From NCBI GenBank assembly GCA_033344895.1, contig JAWPMN010000001.1:1364001-1428000 (forward strand): a stretch of 64,000 nt of DNA, written 5' to 3'. The notes below the pieces were generated by a model. The model was given only the letters and a program-made list of their open reading frames with translations. It was not told where the DNA came from and did not search any database. Both the position numbers and the translations under genes were made by a program. Positions 46,190 through 63,820 of the stretch are shown here, one piece after another (the first letter of the stretch is position 1; every line of letters starts with the position of its first letter). Source of the DNA: Alphaproteobacteria bacterium (GTDB lineage: Bacteria > Pseudomonadota > Alphaproteobacteria > UBA8366 > Aestuariispiraceae).

Positions 46190-47605
46190 ATGAGCACGCC
46201 CGTCCCACCACCGCCGCCCCCCGGCGGTCCGCATCCTTCCGTCCAGCAGTCCGGCGTCCGATGGTTCTTCGGGCGGTTTCTGCGGCATTCGGCGGAGCTG
46301 GGACGGCTGGCGGTACCGGTCGTGGCGAGTCGTGCGGGCATCCTGACCCTGGCGCTGGCGGACACGGTGATGCTGGGCCCGCTGGGCGCGGAGGAGGTCG
46401 GGCATTACGGGCTGGGCACCTCCGCGTTCGTGTTCCTGCTTGTCTGCGGCATCGGCCTGCTGTTCGGAACCATGGTGGAGACCAGCCATCTGCGCGGTGA
46501 GGGACGGCTGTCCGAAACCGGGGCGGTCTGGCGGCGCGCCCTGCCCTATGCCCTGATCCTGGCGGGTATCGGGGTTCTGCTGACGCAGTTCGCGGAATAC
46601 TACTTCCTGGCGGTCGGTCAATCGCCGGACCTGTCCCATGAAGCGGCCAGCGTGACGCGGATTCAGGGGCTCGGGCTTGTGCCGCTGCTGATCTACATCT
46701 GCACCAACATGTATCTGGAGGCGATGGGCCGGCCGATGCCCGGCATGATCGCCGTCTGGGGTGCAAACATCCTGAACATCCCGCTGAACCTGTGGCTGAT
46801 CGAAGGCGGGCTGGGCGTTGCGGGCGCCGACGGGGCAGCATTGGCCACGACGTTGTGCCGGGTCGGCATGATGGCCGGCGTGGTCGGCTATATCTGGTAT
46901 CTGGGCGGCAGGCAGGCGCTGGGCATCCGCACCCGGGCCGAACCGGGATGGATCGTCGGCGGCAAGACCGCACGGCGCCACGGCTACGCCGCCGGCCCGG
47001 CCTATGCGGCGGAAAGCGGCGCCTACCACGTCATGCATATCTTCGCCGGCTGGATGGTCGCCAGCGAACTGGCGTCGTTCAGCATCAATGTGAACCTTCT
47101 GGCGATGATCTTCATGATCTCGCTGGGCATTGCCAGCGCGACCGCGGTGCGCGTCGGCGTCGCCCATGGCCGAAAGGACTGGCCGGACCGGGCGCTGGCC
47201 GGATGGACCGGTGTGTTCTGGGTCATGGTCATGCTGACCCCCTTCGCGGCGACCCTCTATTTCGCGCCGATGGCGACCATGGCGACGGTCTACCGCATCA
47301 CCGATCCGGAACTGCTGGCCGTCATGGCCCCGGCGACGATGCTGGTCGGTGCGGCGATGGTGATGGACGGGGCGCAGTTCACATTGGGCAACGCCCTGCG
47401 CGCCACCGGCGATGCATGGGTACCGACCCTGCTGAACTTCCTGGGCTTCGTCGTCTTCATGATCCCGGCCGCCTACTGGCTGGGCATCGTCCTGGAACGG
47501 AATGCGGTTGGCCTGTATGAGGGCATCCTGCTGGCCAGCGGCATAGTGATGACAATCCTCGCCATCCGCTGGACCTGGATCTGCGTCAGAAAGATCGCGG
47601 GTTAG
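46190..47605 (+). CDS. MATE-family multidrug/toxin efflux protein
   Basis: 471 residues with about twelve hydrophobic helices in two MatE halves. The first half reads RLAVPVVASRAGILTLALAD and the second IFMISLGIASATAVRVGVAH. The N-terminal 25 residues are a proline-rich cytoplasmic tail. It should export a cationic compound in exchange for Na+ or H+. Substrate unknown. Its 3' end overlaps the convergent cysteine-desulfurase-like gene by four bases. Confidence 0.88.
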   Translation: MSTPVPPPPPPGGPHPSVQQSGVRWFFGRFLRHSAELGRLAVPVVASRAGILTLALADTVMLGPLGAEEVGHYGLGTSAFVFLLVCGIGLLFGTMVETSHLRGEGRLSETGAVWRRALPYALILAGIGVLLTQFAEYYFLAVGQSPDLSHEAASVTRIQGLGLVPLLIYICTNMYLEAMGRPMPGMIAVWGANILNIPLNLWLIEGGLGVAGADGAALATTLCRVGMMAGVVGYIWYLGGRQALGIRTRAEPGWIVGGKTARRHGYAAGPAYAAESGAYHVMHIFAGWMVASELASFSINVNLLAMIFMISLGIASATAVRVGVAHGRKDWPDRALAGWTGVFWVMVMLTPFAATLYFAPMATMATVYRITDPELLAVMAPATMLVGAAMVMDGAQFTLGNALRATGDAWVPTLLNFLGFVVFMIPAAYWLGIVLERNAVGLYEGILLASGIVMTILAIRWTWICVRKIAG

Positions 47606-48849
47606 CCCAGAATCTCGTCCAGTGCCGCGGTCAGGCGGTCGACCTCGGCCTCTGTCGTGTAGTGGACCATGGAAACACGCAGCACGCCGACTTCCGGATT
47701 GAGCCCCAGGGCTTCGACGCATCGGTAACCGTAGAAATGGCCCGCGCCGACGCAGAGGCCCTTCGCGGCCAGCGCCTCGGCCAAGTCCTCCGGGTTATGG
47801 TCCGGTACAACCAGGCTGAAGGTCGCGGCACGGCGATGGCAGTCTGCCTCGCGGCGGCCGATCAGGCGGATCTCCGGGCGCGTGTCCAGCCAATCCAGGA
47901 AGCGCTTCATCACCGCCTCTTCCTGCTTCTGGAAAAGGCGATAGATCGCGACCGCCCGGGCGCGCGGGTCGTTGGCGGGCGCGTCGAAATGACGGTCATA
48001 GACGGCGTCGAAGTAATCCAGGATGCCACCGATCGATCCGGCGGATTCGTAGTTGGTGCCGCCCGGATTGAGCATCGCAGCGCCATTGCCTTCGTGGAAG
48101 AAGTGGTTCTGGTTCGCGACGGCGTCGATCCGGTCCTTCTTGCCGTACAGCATGGCGAGATGCGGCCCGAACAGCTTGTAGAAGCTGAACAGGTAGAAAT
48201 CGACGTCCAGATCCTTCAGGTCCGACAGCGTATGCGCCACGGCGGCGACGCCGTCGACCACGGTCATGGCCCCGGCCGCATGGGCCTTCGCGGTAATCGC
48301 CTTCACGTCATTGACCGAGCCGACGACATTGGAGACATGCGGAAAAGCGACCAGCTTCACCTTGCCGTCGTCCAGCAGCGCATCGAGATCGGCGGGGTCG
48401 AGATCGCCGGTCGCCGGATCAAGCTGCCATTCCCGCGCCTCGATTCCGGTTTCGGCAAGCCGCCGCCAGCAGCCGCCATTGGCCTCATGATCCTGATTGG
48501 TGACGACGATCGCATCGCCTTCCGCGAAGCCGGGGCGCAGCGCCTGGGCAAGGACATAGTTGTTCAGGGTCGTGGACGGGCCGATCACCAGTTCGTCCGG
48601 CGAGATGTTGAACAGGGCGGCAATGCCCTTCTGCGCCTTCTCGATCCGGGCCTTGCCCCGTTTGGCGGCGGCAAAGGGCCATTCAGGCTGGGTCTGGCTG
48701 TCGGTCATGAAGGCGGACATGGCCTCGATGACCTGGCGCGGCACATAGGAGCCGCCGGCATTCTCGAAATAGGCGTCCGGCGCACCGGCCGTATCCGACA
48801 TCAACGGGAACTGCGCACGGCAGAATTCGACATCCAGATTATCGCTCAC
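47602..48849 (-). CDS. cysteine desulfurase-like aminotransferase class V
   Basis: 415 residues from the GTG at 48849, which follows GGAG. A longer reading to 48891 would overlap the upstream folD-like gene. The PLP fold type I features are YFENAGGSYVPRQVIEAM, HEANGGCWRRLAE and the lysine-bearing FYLFSFYKLFGPHLAM. Members of this subgroup resemble SufS/CsdA but lack a demonstrated sulfur role. It starts 4 bases after the folD stop, so the two are probably co-transcribed. Confidence 0.85.
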   Translation of the reverse strand: MSDNLDVEFCRAQFPLMSDTAGAPDAYFENAGGSYVPRQVIEAMSAFMTDSQTQPEWPFAAAKRGKARIEKAQKGIAALFNISPDELVIGPSTTLNNYVLAQALRPGFAEGDAIVVTNQDHEANGGCWRRLAETGIEAREWQLDPATGDLDPADLDALLDDGKVKLVAFPHVSNVVGSVNDVKAITAKAHAAGAMTVVDGVAAVAHTLSDLKDLDVDFYLFSFYKLFGPHLAMLYGKKDRIDAVANQNHFFHEGNGAAMLNPGGTNYESAGSIGGILDYFDAVYDRHFDAPANDPRARAVAIYRLFQKQEEAVMKRFLDWLDTRPEIRLIGRREADCHRRAATFSLVVPDHNPEDLAEALAAKGLCVGAGHFYGYRCVEALGLNPEVGVLRVSMVHYTTEAEVDRLTAALDEILG

Positions 48850-48853
48850 AGGT

Positions 48854-49756
48854 TCACTCCGCCGCACTGTTTTGGGTAAAGGTGGCCTCATAGGCCGTTT
48901 TCTGACGCTTCAGGGCGCCCATCGTATTGCGCATCAGGATCGCGACAGTCACCGGCCCGACGCCGCCCGGCACCGGGGTGATCCAGCCCGCGACCTCGGA
49001 CACGCCGTCATAGTCGACATCGCCGCAGATACCCTCGCTGCCATCGTCCCTTGTGATCGCATTGATGCCGATATCGATTACGGCCGCGCCCGGCTTGATC
49101 ATGTCGGCGGTCACCAGCTTCGGCTTGCCGACCGCGACGAAGACCGCGTCGGCCCGGCGCGAATGGACCGACAGCGCGCGGGTCATGTGGTGACAGACCG
49201 TGACGGTGGCCCCTTCCGCCATCAGCAGGAAGGCAATCGGTTTGCCGACGATTTCGGAATGACCGACGACGACGACTTCCAGCCCCTGCATCGGCAGATT
49301 GGTGCTTTTCAGGAGTTCGACCGACGCGGCCGCCGTACAGGGCGCAAGGTCCAGTTCGTTATAGACGATGTTCCCGATGGAGGTCGGGTTCATGCCCTCG
49401 ACATCCTTGAACGGGTGGACGGCGGTCTGCAGCGCCTTGATGGAAATCTGGGGCGGCACCGGGCGCTGGATGATGATGCCGGTGACGCGCGGATCGACAT
49501 TCATGGTCGAGATCGCGACTTCCATCTCCTCCTGGGTCACGTCGCCGGGGAAGGCCCGTTCCTCGAAGGCGATGCCGACCCGCTCGGCGACCCGGCGCTG
49601 GTTGCGGACATAGACGTCCACGGCCTCGACGTCGCCGACGGTGATCGACACCAGTTTCGGCGGCCAGCCGGCTTCCGTCAGGGCGTCGACATCGGCGCGC
49701 ACCTTTTCCAGAATCGCATCGGCTACCGGCTTGCCGCGCAGATCTCTATCACCCAT
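48854..49756 (-). CDS. folD: FolD-like methylene-THF dehydrogenase, catalytic Lys replaced by Gln
   Basis: 300 residues. It has the FolD fold: TGIIIQRPVPPQIS (folate-side loop with Q97), VVVVGHSEIVGKPIAFLL (NAD(P) loop), and TPVPGGVGPVTVAILMRNT. In FolD the conserved Y-x3-K supplies the lysine for cyclohydrolase chemistry; here the segment is Y49-V-R-N-Q53, so the lysine is glutamine. The conserved Asp of KDVDG is glutamate (KDVEG, E120) and PCTPxG is PCTAAA. Dehydrogenase activity may remain while cyclohydrolase activity is doubtful. Start at 49756 (MGDRDLRGKP). It precedes the cysteine-desulfurase-like gene by 4 bases. Confidence 0.85.
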   Translation of the reverse strand: MGDRDLRGKPVADAILEKVRADVDALTEAGWPPKLVSITVGDVEAVDVYVRNQRRVAERVGIAFEERAFPGDVTQEEMEVAISTMNVDPRVTGIIIQRPVPPQISIKALQTAVHPFKDVEGMNPTSIGNIVYNELDLAPCTAAASVELLKSTNLPMQGLEVVVVGHSEIVGKPIAFLLMAEGATVTVCHHMTRALSVHSRRADAVFVAVGKPKLVTADMIKPGAAVIDIGINAITRDDGSEGICGDVDYDGVSEVAGWITPVPGGVGPVTVAILMRNTMGALKRQKTAYEATFTQNSAAE

Positions 49757-58466: not shown

Positions 58467-59075
58467 CTAGGCCGGGTCGGTGATCCGCAGGCCGTATTCC
58501 AGGCTGGCGTCAACCAGCCAGTGATGCAGATCCGGTGCGAAGGAGCGGGCGCAGAAGATGTCGGCGCCCGTCGCGCCGCGCCCGAACACCGTCACCGTGA
58601 AATGGCCCAGCATCGTCCCGACGCAATCGCCGTCCCCGAAAGCGTCAAAGTCGATTGTCGATCCCTTTGCCAGGACACTGCGCAGCGCCGGCCCCTCCAG
58701 GCGCCAGCAGACCCTGGAATGTCCCTGATCCGTGATCGCCGCCCAGTCCGTCGGAATCGATCTGCCAATCGCGGCGTGCAGATCGCGCGTCTCCTTCTCG
58801 ACCACCAGCCAGCGCCGGGGTCCGACCCACAGGATCGCACGCTGACCTACCTCAACGCCGCGCAGGGCCTCCGGCGGGGTGATGTCGAAATCCTGACGCA
58901 GCGCATGCTGAACTTCGCCCTGCCTCTCGGCCCAGGCATCGATGTGAACGATGGCCAGTCCCCGCCGTTCCGTCATGACGATGCCGGGCGCGTCGTCGGC
59001 GACCCACCCGAAATCCCCGGACTGATAATGCCCTTCAAGGGCGGAGCGGCGCGGCGGCGTTTGAATGTCAGCCAT
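58467..59075 (-). CDS. soxG: sarcosine oxidase subunit gamma
   Basis: 202 residues. It reads RRSALEGHYQSGDFGWVADD, then GQRAILWVGPRRWLVVEKET, RVCWRLEGPALRSVLAKGST and CARSFAPDLHHWLVDASLEY. It is a small accessory subunit with a GcvT-like fold. The ATG lies within the last codons of soxA, an 8-base overlap. It ends convergently with ridA. It completes the heterotetramer with SoxB, SoxD and SoxA. Confidence 0.9.
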   Translation of the reverse strand: MADIQTPPRRSALEGHYQSGDFGWVADDAPGIVMTERRGLAIVHIDAWAERQGEVQHALRQDFDITPPEALRGVEVGQRAILWVGPRRWLVVEKETRDLHAAIGRSIPTDWAAITDQGHSRVCWRLEGPALRSVLAKGSTIDFDAFGDGDCVGTMLGHFTVTVFGRGATGADIFCARSFAPDLHHWLVDASLEYGLRITDPA

Positions 59076-62000
59076 GGAGGCGCTTCCCTTCCGGATCAAC
59101 GAAATGCGGACTGCGTACCGTTGCGGGGACATAGAGGTTCTTGAGCGGATAGGCGACCAGCACCGTATCGCCTTCCCGCGTCAGCCCCCCCTCCAGCAGG
59201 CCGAGCGCGATCGGCGTATCCAGTTCCGGGCTGAAACCGTTGGAGCTGACATTGCCGATCATCTTCACCGGGCGGGGCTTGTCGCGGTCGGCAACCTCGA
59301 TGATCTGGGCGCCGTTGGGCAGGGAGGACCGGCCATCGACCGGAACCAGACCGACCAGTTTCTTGCGGTCCGGGCCGGTCAGGCCGGGGCGCTGTGCCAG
59401 GGCCTTTCCGATGAAATCCTTCCTGGTCGACATCATTTTGCCCAGGCCCAGATCGTCGGCGGTGGTGCGTCCGTCCAGTTCGGCGCCGGCGACGTGGCCC
59501 TTCTCGATGCGCATATTGCCCAGCGCCTCCAGCCCATAGGGTACGATGCCGAATTCCTTGCCTGCCTCCATCAGCGTTTCCCAGACCAGGCGGCCATAGT
59601 CACTCGGCACGTTGATCTCATAGGCCAGTTCCCCGGAAAAGCTGATCCGGAACAGGCGCGCCGGGATGTCGTCCGTGACCGCCTTGCAGGATGCGCAGGC
59701 CATGAAGGGGAAGGCCGCATCGGACAGATCGATATCGACGATACGCTGCATCAGCGCCCGGCTGTTCGGCCCCGCCAGCGCGATGGCCGCATATTGTTCG
59801 GTGACGCTGACCACCTTCACCCGCAGATCCGGCCAGACGGCCTGAAGATAGAATTCCAGCTTGGCCATGACGGTGACGGCATTGGCCGTGGTCGTGGTCA
59901 TGACATAGTGGTTCTCGCCCAGCCGCGACGTCGTGCCGTCGTCCTGAACCAGCCCGTCCTCACGCAGCATCAGGCCGTAGCGCGCCTTGCCGACCGGCAG
60001 CTTCGCGAAGCCGTTCGTGTAGATCCGGTTCAGGAGTTCCCCGGCGTCCGGGCCCTGGATGTCGATCTTGCCCAGGGTCGTGACATCGCAGATCCCGACG
60101 GAACTGCGGGTCTGCCGGGTTTCGCGGATATAGGCCTGACGCAGGGTTTCGCCCGGCGCCTCCGGATAGTATCGCGGCCGGTCCCAGAGACCCGCCGGAA
60201 CCCATTCGCAACCGCGTTCCTGATGCCAGTCATGCATCGGCGAGCGCCGGCGGGGCTTGTAGTGTTGACCGCGTTCCGTGCCGCCCATCGCCCCGATGGC
60301 GATCGGGGTATAGGGCGGGCGGAAGGTCGTCGTACCGACCGCCGGGATCGGCTCACCGCGCAGTTTCGCCATGATCGCCAGCCCGGTGACGTTCGACGTC
60401 TTGCCCTGATCGGTCCCCATGCCCAGCGTCGTATAGCGCTTCAGATGCTCGACCGAGACATAGCCTTCGCGATGGGCCAGCCGGACATCATCGGCGCTGA
60501 CATCGTCCTGATGATCGACGAACTTCTTCGGATGACCCGTCAACGGATCCGGCGCCTCCCAAAGCGGTTCCGGGGGGGCCGGGGTTTCGGCCTCGACCCG
60601 GGGCAGGTCGATCGCACGATCCAGGGAATGTCCCGTCAGCGCCGCGGCCTGGGTGCCGCGCGCGAGGCCGTCGGACAGCACCGACGCCAGGCTGAACCGG
60701 CCCGCCGCGGACCCGGCAGAGGATTCCGGCCGTTTCGGCGCGCCCGGTAGGAAACAGTTCAGCTTCCCGTTCCAGATCGGTTTCGCCCCGGTCTGGCTGG
60801 AGAGATGCACATTCGGTTGCCAGCCGCCGGAAATCGCCAGCAGGTCGCAATCCAGTCGCCGCGCGGGTCCGCCCTCGACCGGGGCGACATCCACGGCCTG
60901 CAGCCCGAAATGGCCATGGGTGTTCACCACCGCCTGACCGGTCAGGATCGCGACACCCTTGCCCCGCGCCCGATCGATCAGGGCGGAACGCGGGTCCCGG
61001 CGCGCGTCGACGACGGCAACCACACCGCCCCCGGTATTCAGCACGTCCAGCGCCGTTCGGTAGGCATCGTCATTGTTGGTGAAGATCACGGCACGCCGGC
61101 CCGGCAGCACCCCGAATTCGTTGATATAGGCACGCACCGCACCGGCCAGCATGACGCCCGGCCGGTCATTGTTGCCAAAAACCAGCGGCTGTTCGGTCGC
61201 GCCCGTGGCCAGGATCACCTGCTTTGCCCGGAACCGCCACCAGCGCTGACGCGGCAGATGCGCCGGCGGCACCGACAGATGATCCGACACCCGCTCCACC
61301 GCACCGATCAGATTGCCGTCGTAATAGCCGAAAGCGGTGGTCCGCGTCAGAAGCCTGACATTGGGGAGCGCCGCCAACCTGGCAACGGTCCGTGCCACCC
61401 ATTCCCCCGCCGGTTCGTCACCAATCCTGTAGGCATCCTGATTCAGCCGCCCGCCGAAACGCGATGTTTCATCGACCAGGATCACCCGGGCCCCCGTTTC
61501 CGCCGCGGCCAGCGCGGCGCTGAGCCCCGCCGGACCGCCGCCGACCACCAGAACGTCGCAATGGGCGTGCATGCGGTCGTAACGATCGGGATCCGCTTCG
61601 CCCGATGCCCGGCCCATCCCGGCCGATTTGCGAATGATCCTTTCAAAGAACATCCACAGCTTCGTATTGGCGAAGGGGCCCATGAAGGTCTTGTAGTAGA
61701 AGCCCGCCGGAATGAACCGGGCGATCATCTGATTCAGGGCCTGAATGTCGTATTTCAGACTGGGTGCGCGGTTCTGACTTTCCGCGACCAGCCCGTCATA
61801 GAGTTCCGCTACCGTCGCACGGGTGTTCGGTTCCCTCCGGGCGCCCTCCCGCAGGGCGACCAGGGCATTCGGCTCCTCCACGCCGGCGGAAAAGATGCCG
61901 CGCGGACGGTGGTACTTGAAGCTGCGGGCCACCAGCTTGACCCCGTTTGCCAACAGGGCCGATGCCAGGGTGTCGCCCTTGTATCCGGTGTATTCCCGGC

Positions 62001-62079
62001 CATCGAAGGTGAAGCGCATCGGCTCCCTTCGCTCGATACGCCCGAACCCGTCGAGGCGGTTGGGTTGTTCGCTGCCCAT
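59068..62079 (-). CDS. soxA: sarcosine oxidase subunit alpha
   Basis: 1003 residues. N-terminal 2Fe-2S-like ferredoxin fold, then an FAD/NAD domain (VLVVGGGPAGLSAALAAAE), and a C-terminal GcvT-like tetrahydrofolate domain (NRIYTNGFAKLPVGKARYGL, then SGELAYEINVPSDYG). It oxidises sarcosine to glycine with THF as methyl-derived C1 acceptor, giving 5,10-methylene-THF and H2O2. The ATG at 62079 shares its A with the soxD stop (TGATG). Cytosolic. Part of soxBDAG. Confidence 0.96.
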   Translation of the reverse strand: MGSEQPNRLDGFGRIERREPMRFTFDGREYTGYKGDTLASALLANGVKLVARSFKYHRPRGIFSAGVEEPNALVALREGARREPNTRATVAELYDGLVAESQNRAPSLKYDIQALNQMIARFIPAGFYYKTFMGPFANTKLWMFFERIIRKSAGMGRASGEADPDRYDRMHAHCDVLVVGGGPAGLSAALAAAETGARVILVDETSRFGGRLNQDAYRIGDEPAGEWVARTVARLAALPNVRLLTRTTAFGYYDGNLIGAVERVSDHLSVPPAHLPRQRWWRFRAKQVILATGATEQPLVFGNNDRPGVMLAGAVRAYINEFGVLPGRRAVIFTNNDDAYRTALDVLNTGGGVVAVVDARRDPRSALIDRARGKGVAILTGQAVVNTHGHFGLQAVDVAPVEGGPARRLDCDLLAISGGWQPNVHLSSQTGAKPIWNGKLNCFLPGAPKRPESSAGSAAGRFSLASVLSDGLARGTQAAALTGHSLDRAIDLPRVEAETPAPPEPLWEAPDPLTGHPKKFVDHQDDVSADDVRLAHREGYVSVEHLKRYTTLGMGTDQGKTSNVTGLAIMAKLRGEPIPAVGTTTFRPPYTPIAIGAMGGTERGQHYKPRRRSPMHDWHQERGCEWVPAGLWDRPRYYPEAPGETLRQAYIRETRQTRSSVGICDVTTLGKIDIQGPDAGELLNRIYTNGFAKLPVGKARYGLMLREDGLVQDDGTTSRLGENHYVMTTTTANAVTVMAKLEFYLQAVWPDLRVKVVSVTEQYAAIALAGPNSRALMQRIVDIDLSDAAFPFMACASCKAVTDDIPARLFRISFSGELAYEINVPSDYGRLVWETLMEAGKEFGIVPYGLEALGNMRIEKGHVAGAELDGRTTADDLGLGKMMSTRKDFIGKALAQRPGLTGPDRKKLVGLVPVDGRSSLPNGAQIIEVADRDKPRPVKMIGNVSSNGFSPELDTPIALGLLEGGLTREGDTVLVAYPLKNLYVPATVRSPHFVDPEGKRLHG

Positions 62080-62381
62080 CACGCGCCCTCCCCGCCGGCT
62101 TCGTCAGATCCGGTTTCATCGGGCATCGGCCCGGCCGCCGGCCCGCAGGCCAGGATTTCATGGGTCAGCGTATTCCGCTCGACGCGGATCCACCGCCGGC
62201 AACCAGCGACGTGATGCCAGTATTCGACATGCGGACCGCGCGGGTTATCACGCTGGTAGACGGCGTCGAACCAGGCGTCCTGGCCAACGGTGATGTCCGG
62301 CACGGCGACACTGGCATCGCCGCCATAGCTGAACTCGACGACATCGCGTTCGCCGCAATGGGGGCAGGTGAAGCGGAACAT
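62079..62381 (-). CDS. soxD: sarcosine oxidase subunit delta
   Basis: 100 residues. A zinc site is evident: FRFTCPHCGERDVVEFSYGG (C6, C9) with later WHHVAGCRRW (H and C). Delta subunits stabilise the heterotetramer. The ATG is preceded by AAGGAGGACGGACGG. It lies 14 bases after soxB and shares one base with soxA. Confidence 0.95.
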   Translation of the reverse strand: MFRFTCPHCGERDVVEFSYGGDASVAVPDITVGQDAWFDAVYQRDNPRGPHVEYWHHVAGCRRWIRVERNTLTHEILACGPAAGPMPDETGSDEAGGEGA

Positions 62382-62395
62382 TCCGTCCGTCCTCC

Positions 62396-63652
62396 TTAAT
62401 GGTGGCCCGGGATCGGCCCGGCCCCGCGCTCGTCGACCATCCGACCGTCACGGAAACGCGCCAGATCGAGATCGCGGTTGATCCAGTGGGGTTCGTCATG
62501 GGCGATGGTATGGGCAAAGACCCATCCGGAACCCGGCGTCGCCTTGAACCCTCCATAGCACCAGCCGCCGTTGAGATAGAGGCCCTTCACCGGTGTCTTG
62601 CCGATGATCGGGCTGCCATCCATCGACATGTCCATCACCCCGGCCCAATGGCGCAGCATCCGGATTCGCCCGATGGACGGCATCAGGGCCATCCCTTCCT
62701 CTCCCAGATGTTCGACCAGCGGCAGGTTGCCGCGCTGCGCATAGGAATTGTAGCCGTCCAGGTCGCCACCGAAGACCAGCCCCCCCTTGTCGGACTGACT
62801 GATGTAGAAATGTCCGGCGCCGAAGGTGACCACCCCGTCGATGAAAGGTTTCAGGGGCTCGGACACGAAGGCCTGCAGCAGATGGCTTTCGATCGGCAGC
62901 GTCAGCCCGGCCAGCGCCGCGACCTGACTGGTATGTCCGGCAACCGCCATGCCGATCTTTTCCGCCTTGATCGGTCCGCGCGTCGTCTGAACCCCCTTCA
63001 CCGCACCGCCCTGGATGTCGAAACCGGTCACCTCGCAGTTCTGGATGATATCGACACCCAGGCTGTCGGCGGCCCGTGCAAACCCCCAGGCGACCGCGTC
63101 GTGGCGCGCCGTGCCCCCGCGCGGCTGCAGCAGGCCACCGACAATGGGAAAACGCGCATTGTCGGAAAAATCCAGCACCGGCGCGTAGCGACGAACCTGC
63201 TCGCGGTCCAGCAATTCGGCATCGATCCCGTTCAGCCGCATCGCATTGCCGCGCCGCGCATAGGCATCCATCTGCGCGTCGCTATGGGCCAGGTTCAGGA
63301 CCCCGCGCTGCGAGAACATTACGTTGTAGTTCAGATCGACCGACAGGCCTTCCCACAGTTTCAGCGAATGCTCATAGAAATGGGCGTTCGCCTCCAGCAT
63401 GTAGTTGGACCGCACAATGGTCGTGTTGCGGCCCGTATTGCCGCCGCCCAGCCAGCCCTTCTCCAGCACGGCGATGTTGGTCATGCCATGCAGTTTGGCC
63501 AGATAGTAGGCGGTCGCCAGGCCATGGCCGCCCCCGCCGATGATGATCGCGTCATATTCGGGCTTCGGCTCCGGGTCACGCCATGCGCGCACCCAATGCT
63601 TCTGCCCGGTCAGTCCGCCCTTGAGGACACTGAAAACGGAATACCGGGACAT
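62396..63652 (-). CDS. soxB: sarcosine oxidase subunit beta
   Basis: 418 residues. The FAD domain starts YDAIIIGGGGHGLATAYYLA, followed by EKGWLGGGNTGRNTTIVRSN and later SFGAGHFYISQSDKG-type sequence (VTFGAGHFYISQSDKGGL). It binds FAD and covalent FMN at the active site for sarcosine oxidation. The start at 63652 gives the normal length; an extension to 63763 is in frame but lacks a ribosome site. First gene of the soxBDAG operon, read leftward. Confidence 0.95.
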   Translation of the reverse strand: MSRYSVFSVLKGGLTGQKHWVRAWRDPEPKPEYDAIIIGGGGHGLATAYYLAKLHGMTNIAVLEKGWLGGGNTGRNTTIVRSNYMLEANAHFYEHSLKLWEGLSVDLNYNVMFSQRGVLNLAHSDAQMDAYARRGNAMRLNGIDAELLDREQVRRYAPVLDFSDNARFPIVGGLLQPRGGTARHDAVAWGFARAADSLGVDIIQNCEVTGFDIQGGAVKGVQTTRGPIKAEKIGMAVAGHTSQVAALAGLTLPIESHLLQAFVSEPLKPFIDGVVTFGAGHFYISQSDKGGLVFGGDLDGYNSYAQRGNLPLVEHLGEEGMALMPSIGRIRMLRHWAGVMDMSMDGSPIIGKTPVKGLYLNGGWCYGGFKATPGSGWVFAHTIAHDEPHWINRDLDLARFRDGRMVDERGAGPIPGHH

Positions 63653-63820
63653 GGCGAGTTCAATCACTCCTGAAACGGCGGCAGGGCTGAAGTCGCGGAT
63701 ACCCCAAGACTTAGACCAGCGCGAATGCAGGCTATCTAAATCGAATCGCGCGGCAAGCGACACGTTGGAATCCGTCCCGGATCATTCAAATCTCGCCATC
63801 TTTGGCCTGGAACCGACAGA

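Follow-up and report, generated by a model that had tools for sequence, protein, structure and literature searches.

The window, a 64,000-nt stretch of alphaproteobacterial DNA, contains a gene, folD2, whose product has the fold of the FolD superfamily but lacks the residue features that define the bifunctional NADP-linked FolD. FolD2 is a conserved subfamily, not a single oddity, and the explanation that we favor, with a probability of roughly 58%, is that it is an NAD-linked, dehydrogenase-only, catabolic methylene-tetrahydrofolate (THF) dehydrogenase for methyl-group catabolism. Taken by its parts, a role in THF-linked methyl oxidation is very probable, a preference for NAD+ over NADP+ is probable, and the loss of cyclohydrolase activity is somewhat less so. 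Neither a published description of the subfamily nor an enzyme assay of any FolD2 was found in the literature searched, which left out most subscription journals, and FolD2 was labelled bifunctional in both annotated plasmids examined.

Table 1. Features of the window, with positions counted from its first nucleotide
Feature	Position	Strand	Product or family	NCBIfam match
folD2	48854..49756	-	FolD-family protein, 300 aa plus stop; uninterrupted reading frame in translation	
class V aminotransferase / cysteine-desulfurase-like gene	47602..48891	-		TIGR01976, 311 bits, below cut-off 352.35 (best NCBIfam match)
soxB	62396..63763	-	sarcosine oxidase beta subunit family	TIGR01373, 718.3 bits (cut-off 529.45)
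soxD	62079..62381	-	delta subunit family	TIGR01374, 106.3 bits, below cut-off 116.5
soxA	59068..62082	-	alpha subunit family with GcvT-like folate domain	TIGR01372, 1387.4 bits (cut-off 1164)
soxG	58467..59132	-	gamma subunit family	TIGR01375, 84.4 bits, below cut-off 143.95

Both Pfam domains and the overall fold of canonical FolD were found in FolD2. The domains scored above their cut-offs (PF00763, 105.6 bits; PF02882, 200.7 bits), and an AlphaFold2 model built from an alignment of 22 sequences was complete and confident (mean pLDDT 91.0, pTM 0.89), matching solved bifunctional FolDs over nearly the full length with Z values of up to 38.9 (28.9 for yeast 1edz). The protein nevertheless fell under the cut-off of all 25 NCBIfam FolD models listed of the 30 matched, and the best score among these was 281.6 bits against the 421 of that model. 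The sequence-only reading had noticed the segments YVRNQ (Y49, Q53), KDVEG (E120) and PCTAAA, all of which the translation bears out. In each of four alignments with solved FolDs, Q53 lies opposite the catalytic Lys and E120 opposite the conserved Asp. The Tyr-x3-Lys motif of canonical FolD is thus absent; the Asp of KDVDG and the Leu of QLP are replaced by E120 and R98, H166 and H190 stand in place of two NADP 2'-phosphate ligands, Arg and Ser, and the PCTPxG loop reads PCTAAA through A142 and A144. PMC3368264 lists Tyr52, Lys56, Gln100, Leu101, Asp125, Gly273 and Gly276 as key residues of the human enzyme and Arg173, His196 and Ser197 as its ligands of the NADP 2'-phosphate. By these lists FolD2 alters three of the seven key residues (Lys56, Leu101 and Asp125) and has His in place of two of the three phosphate ligands. 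The loop change, which had been counted among the departures, stands as an observation but carries less weight as a sign, since PATASA occupies the same place in human MTHFD2L (7qei), whose deposited description is bifunctional; as a mark of lost cyclohydrolase, PCTAAA was therefore ruled out.

The altered residues are invariant. All 109 distinct FolD2 sequences, which come from 145 places and include the window's own, carry Y49, Q53, Q97, R98, E120, H166 and H190. Since one of the searches used a pattern that included FKDVEGMN and so favors E120, we also considered the 30 distinct sequences that were absent from its 80 loci and had been found by BLAST or family search only; the same seven residues were present in all 30. 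Among the first 100 distinct sequences, A144 and both loop glycines were kept in 100, A142 and H189 in 99, and the combination of Gln97 and the two glycines that is typical of canonical FolD in all 100. The 48 distinct canonical FolDs (FolD1; 57 places) carry Tyr, Lys, Gln, Asp and Ser in 48 of 48 and Leu and Arg in 47 each. For these counts FolD2 was defined by over 55% identity to P0002 and FolD1 by over 50% identity to P0003, and three short places (L195, L183, L186) and eight FolD3 places were excluded. In a tree of 69 rows, thinned from 197 by removing near-identical ones, FolD2 (32 rows) formed one clade with support of 100/99, the canonical FolDs (35 rows) a group with support of 95/79, and FolD3 (2 rows) a third; the tree tool warned that FolD3 and FolD2 join each other through long branches. 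The window protein carries Q53, R98, E120, H166 and H190 and lies within the FolD2 clade. L98R, R166H and S190H occurred in 32 of 32 thinned FolD2 rows, R191 was replaced by M (30 rows) or L (2 rows), and there were further changes. The sequence-only reading thus missed that the protein belongs to a conserved subfamily, that Leu is replaced by Arg in its active site, and that most of its NADP 2'-phosphate site is gone.

That reading had also named a sequencing error as what would overturn it. An error is excluded by the occurrence of the changes in 109 of 109 distinct sequences. The dN/dS values of folD2 against two relatives were 0.03 and 0.06, which indicates purifying selection on the gene. 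Together with the complete, confidently modelled fold, these observations refute the idea that FolD2 is a sequencing artifact or a decaying paralogue, to which we assign next to no probability, and a pseudogene was likewise ruled out.

FolD2 was found in 20 of the 289 genomes of a sample of the class Alphaproteobacteria, spanning 11 families by their assigned labels, and in 15 of the 397 genomes of a phylum sample, all 15 of them from Alphaproteobacteria; both samples were drawn automatically. It also occurs, by record title alone, in Sedimenticola (L046) and in Gammaproteobacteria MAGs (L020, L021). Some titles are surprising or look wrong: a record titled 'Mesoflavibacter' (L012) encodes a protein 98% identical to the FolD2 of the window, one titled 'Mycobacterium sp. 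KBS0706' (L025) has an Inquilinus-like folD2, and the 'Sedimenticola' record has folD2 together with MttB and RACo.

A dehydrogenase-only enzyme would, as the sequence-only reading argued, need either a second, normal FolD or an FchA in the same genome. Our genome search revealed the former: the window genome encodes two FolD homologues, and the second, 41% identical to the first, has YVCNK, KDVDG and PCTPLG. FchA (PF04961, FTCD_C) had no match in 43 genomes of the order, the window's own included; the control gave matches in 2 of 14 genomes. Extending the PF00763 search to 48 distinct FolD2 genomes (50 entries less G328 and G348, which equal G003 and G071 at identical coordinates) revealed a Lys-bearing second FolD in 42. 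Four others (G331 and G333, both titled Inquilinus limosus; G334, titled Mycobacterium sp. KBS0706; and G055) carry a divergent FolD3, with FchA close by on the same contig. In the remaining two, G330 and G332, the searches gave FolD2 alone, with no second FolD and no FchA. The former is a MAG and the latter a draft of Inquilinus limosus MP06, the species of G331 and G333; as the contig collection behind these two loci contained no contigs under 3,000 bases, the missing partners may be gaps. Replacement of FolD by FolD2 was not seen, except possibly in these two genomes. Alphaproteobacteria as a rule require canonical FolD, so finding it in a FolD2 genome carries little evidential weight.

FolD3 (L158, L159, L160, L161) keeps the Lys but has Glu for Gln97 in 8 of 8 places in the four genomes. 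It has PATPxA for PCTPxG, its gene lies near fchA, and no canonical FolD was found in those genomes. FolD3 is possibly another dehydrogenase-only enzyme.

Residue identity leaves room for a FolD2 that is still a bifunctional, NAD-linked catabolic isozyme in which R98 or an ordered water replaces the Lys, a reading that we consider unlikely but not negligible. In Table 2 of PMC6443876, the silkworm K53A variant retains nearly wild-type cyclohydrolase (kcat/Km 0.097 vs 0.13), and the dehydrogenase activity of D120A on methylene-THF is undetectable. Neither the Lys nor the Asp is therefore simply diagnostic. The sequence-only reading had invoked a human Lys-to-Gln variant without cyclohydrolase, and no such result was found in the literature searched. 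The invariant Gln97 and the two active-site glycines, the new invariant Arg next to Gln97 (which could stand in for the Lys), the similar T-A-x-A change of MTHFD2L and the lone FolD2 of G330 and G332 would all suit a bifunctional enzyme. However, a bifunctional FolD2 would make its partner superfluous in a catabolic operon, and the Lys-bearing FolD retained in most FolD2 genomes, which sometimes adjoins folD2 in a C1 operon, therefore counts against it, as does FchA in the four others. The two genomes with FolD2 alone also weigh less, given that one is a MAG and the other a draft from a species in which both further genomes carry FolD3 together with FchA. Moreover, a yeast NAD-dependent dehydrogenase shows both the loss of the Lys and the change of Asp to Glu.

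This yeast methylenetetrahydrofolate dehydrogenase (1EDZ, presumably the product of MTD1) operates beside a separate bifunctional-type enzyme. Like FolD2, it has lost the catalytic Lys and the His-Ser pair and has KDVEG, and its loop, PCTPLA, has Ala for the Gly of PCTPxG. Part of the FolD2 pattern is therefore common to a distant enzyme. Unlike FolD2, the yeast protein has Thr for the Lys and Tyr for the Gln that FolD2 keeps (Gln97); the two are 28% identical over the fold and, with an E value of 8e-12, no close relatives, and FolD2 is far closer to bacterial FolDs than to the yeast enzyme. The yeast enzyme is monofunctional, to judge by the titles of references cited in PMC5718140. Canonical bacterial FolDs (e.g., E. 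coli 1b0a and X. albilineans 5nhs) resemble FolD2 in fold, length, both domains, Tyr49, Gln97 and the PGGVGP loop, but FolD2 differs from them in all of the substitutions above (Q53, R98, E120, the PCTAAA loop, and the two His that replace the 2'-phosphate Arg and Ser) and forms a separate clade. The top two Foldseek structural matches of FolD2 were human MTHFD2 and MTHFD2L (6s4a and 7qei), which are 41 and 42% identical to it and are both deposited or titled as bifunctional; PMC5718140 gives their cofactor as NAD or NADP. MTHFD2L shares the T-A-x-A loop with FolD2, but keeps the Lys and Asp. An additional FolD encoded among C1 genes, as FolD2 is, has also been described for the Gram-positive strain 31Y (PMC5023230), in which, as in the FolD3-FchA pair of Inquilinus, a divergent second FolD stands beside a separate cyclohydrolase. 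FolD3 differs from FolD2 in its Lys, its Glu for Gln97 and its adjoining fchA, for which the window genome had no match.

The distribution and gene neighborhoods of folD2 point to one-carbon oxidation. In the class sample, SoxG was present in 20 of 20 FolD2 genomes vs 117 of 289 overall (Fisher p 5e-9), and Fhs in 20 of 20 vs 139 of 289 over cut-off (p 2e-7; 10 matches under cut-off were excluded), with kinship ignored in both tests. On plasmid p-SCP4 of Ponticoccus alexandrii, fdhF-fhs-folD-folD2-tdm lie in one direction, folD and folD2 overlap by 4 bases, and Fdh-alpha and Tdm both score above their family cut-offs. G296 carries fhs-folD-folD2 on each of two contigs, with the same 4-base overlap, and the order fhs-folD2-folD was found in G060, G587 and G462. 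Relatives of Tdm (76% identical), GMAS and GlxD lie near folD2 in G492, and soxB, soxA, soxG and thyA lie beside it in G093. In G322, a type III glutamate-ammonia ligase over cut-off, which we take to belong to the GMAS family, lies near folD2 with genes resembling glxBCD; we presume the latter names (locus L118) from gene order and resemblance, the family scans having given generic below-cut-off matches or none. A gene for Fdh-alpha adjoins folD2 in G228 and G141 (28 and 61 bp), the G228 copy having been scanned and the G141 copy assigned as 91% identical to it. In Paracoccus aminovorans, a BCCT transporter and a GlxA-type regulator adjoin folD2, and choline genes lie about 8 kb off. MttB and RACo were found near folD2 in G345, with FolD 9.5 kb away. 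These neighborhoods (fhs, folD, tdm, fdh, sox and GMAS) fit the oxidation of methylene-THF derived from methylated amines.

The linkage is far from general. A C1 query match lay within 10 kb in only 15 of 103 neighborhoods (three of these repeat one genome, and some of the matches are weak and partial), and 80 of the 103 spanned at most 6 kb per side; no tight C1 linkage was seen in the Mesorhizobium and Aminobacter loci or in the genus of the window. It is conceivable, but quite improbable, that FolD2 uses another one-carbon carrier or folate form, runs reductively or acts as a regulator, with Q53, R98 and E120 serving a new ligand. The joint, invariant change of three substrate-site residues, the long stem of the clade (2.23 changes per column) and the majority of tested loci that have no C1 neighbor would agree with such a role. 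On the other hand, Fhs and SoxG in all 20 genomes and the placement of folD2 with folD, fhs and genes for demethylases that form methylene-THF point to ordinary THF, and the site has retained its Tyr, Gln and Gly.

Two candidate neighbors were rejected. The glcDEF-like genes (by eye) in L070, the one Mesorhizobium locus that we read, are not operon partners, because the neighbor lies on the opposite strand and runs towards folD2, and a molybdopterin enzyme in L120 that resembles formate dehydrogenase by eye reached no formate dehydrogenase cut-off. In the locus L162 (G345:C5:44000-62000), a stretch of about 20 kb encodes MttB, RACo, a Lys-bearing FolD and FolD2, and Fhs (G345:C5:34387-36045) lies about 11 kb further along the same contig; the region is a possible corrinoid methyl-transfer cluster.

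A probable source of substrate lies in the window itself. The sarcosine oxidase noticed in the sequence was identified by family scan as a heterotetrameric soxBDAG cluster (58467-63763), which lies 9.3 kb from folD2, does not share its operon and is the likely source of methylene-THF. The genome also encodes Fhs and an Fdh-alpha above cut-off, and PurU had no match over cut-off in it; therefore, an Fhs route to formate is available. We infer the substrate, cofactor and loss of cyclohydrolase, as well as the direction of flux, for the following scheme. Methylated amines (sarcosine, dimethylglycine, TMAO and N-methylglutamate from methylamine) would be demethylated to yield 5,10-methylene-THF, which FolD2 would oxidize to 5,10-methenyl-THF, most likely with NAD+. 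Canonical FolD, or FchA in Inquilinus-type genomes, would hydrolyze methenyl-THF to 10-formyl-THF, Fhs would convert this to formate with formation of ATP, and formate dehydrogenase would oxidize formate to CO2. If FolD2 is an NAD-linked dehydrogenase only, metabolic models of how marine and soil alphaproteobacteria oxidize methylated amines give it an incorrect cofactor and credit it with one step more than it performs. The family further provides natural pairs of enzymes with and without the Lys and Asp, which are suited to the disputed role of the FolD lysine.

The occurrence of folD and folD2 side by side in both orders, along with the 4-base overlaps, is the basis for a further, distinctly unlikely proposal: C1 oxidation is split between FolD2 and canonical FolD, possibly as a heterodimer, in which FolD2 carries out the NAD+-linked oxidation only and passes methenyl-THF to the cyclohydrolase site of its partner. 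Were this true, an alphaproteobacterial lineage would have evolved a dehydrogenase-only FolD in parallel with yeast, and FolD2 would separate catabolic from biosynthetic C1 flow.

As for the immediate neighbor of folD2 in the window, the class V aminotransferase gene was rejected as a functional partner, because a set of 82 loci, which includes the canonical folD locus, contained similar ORFs in no more than 6. It shares 38 bases with the 3' end of folD2, an overlap is also present in L012, and the two genes are possibly co-transcribed.
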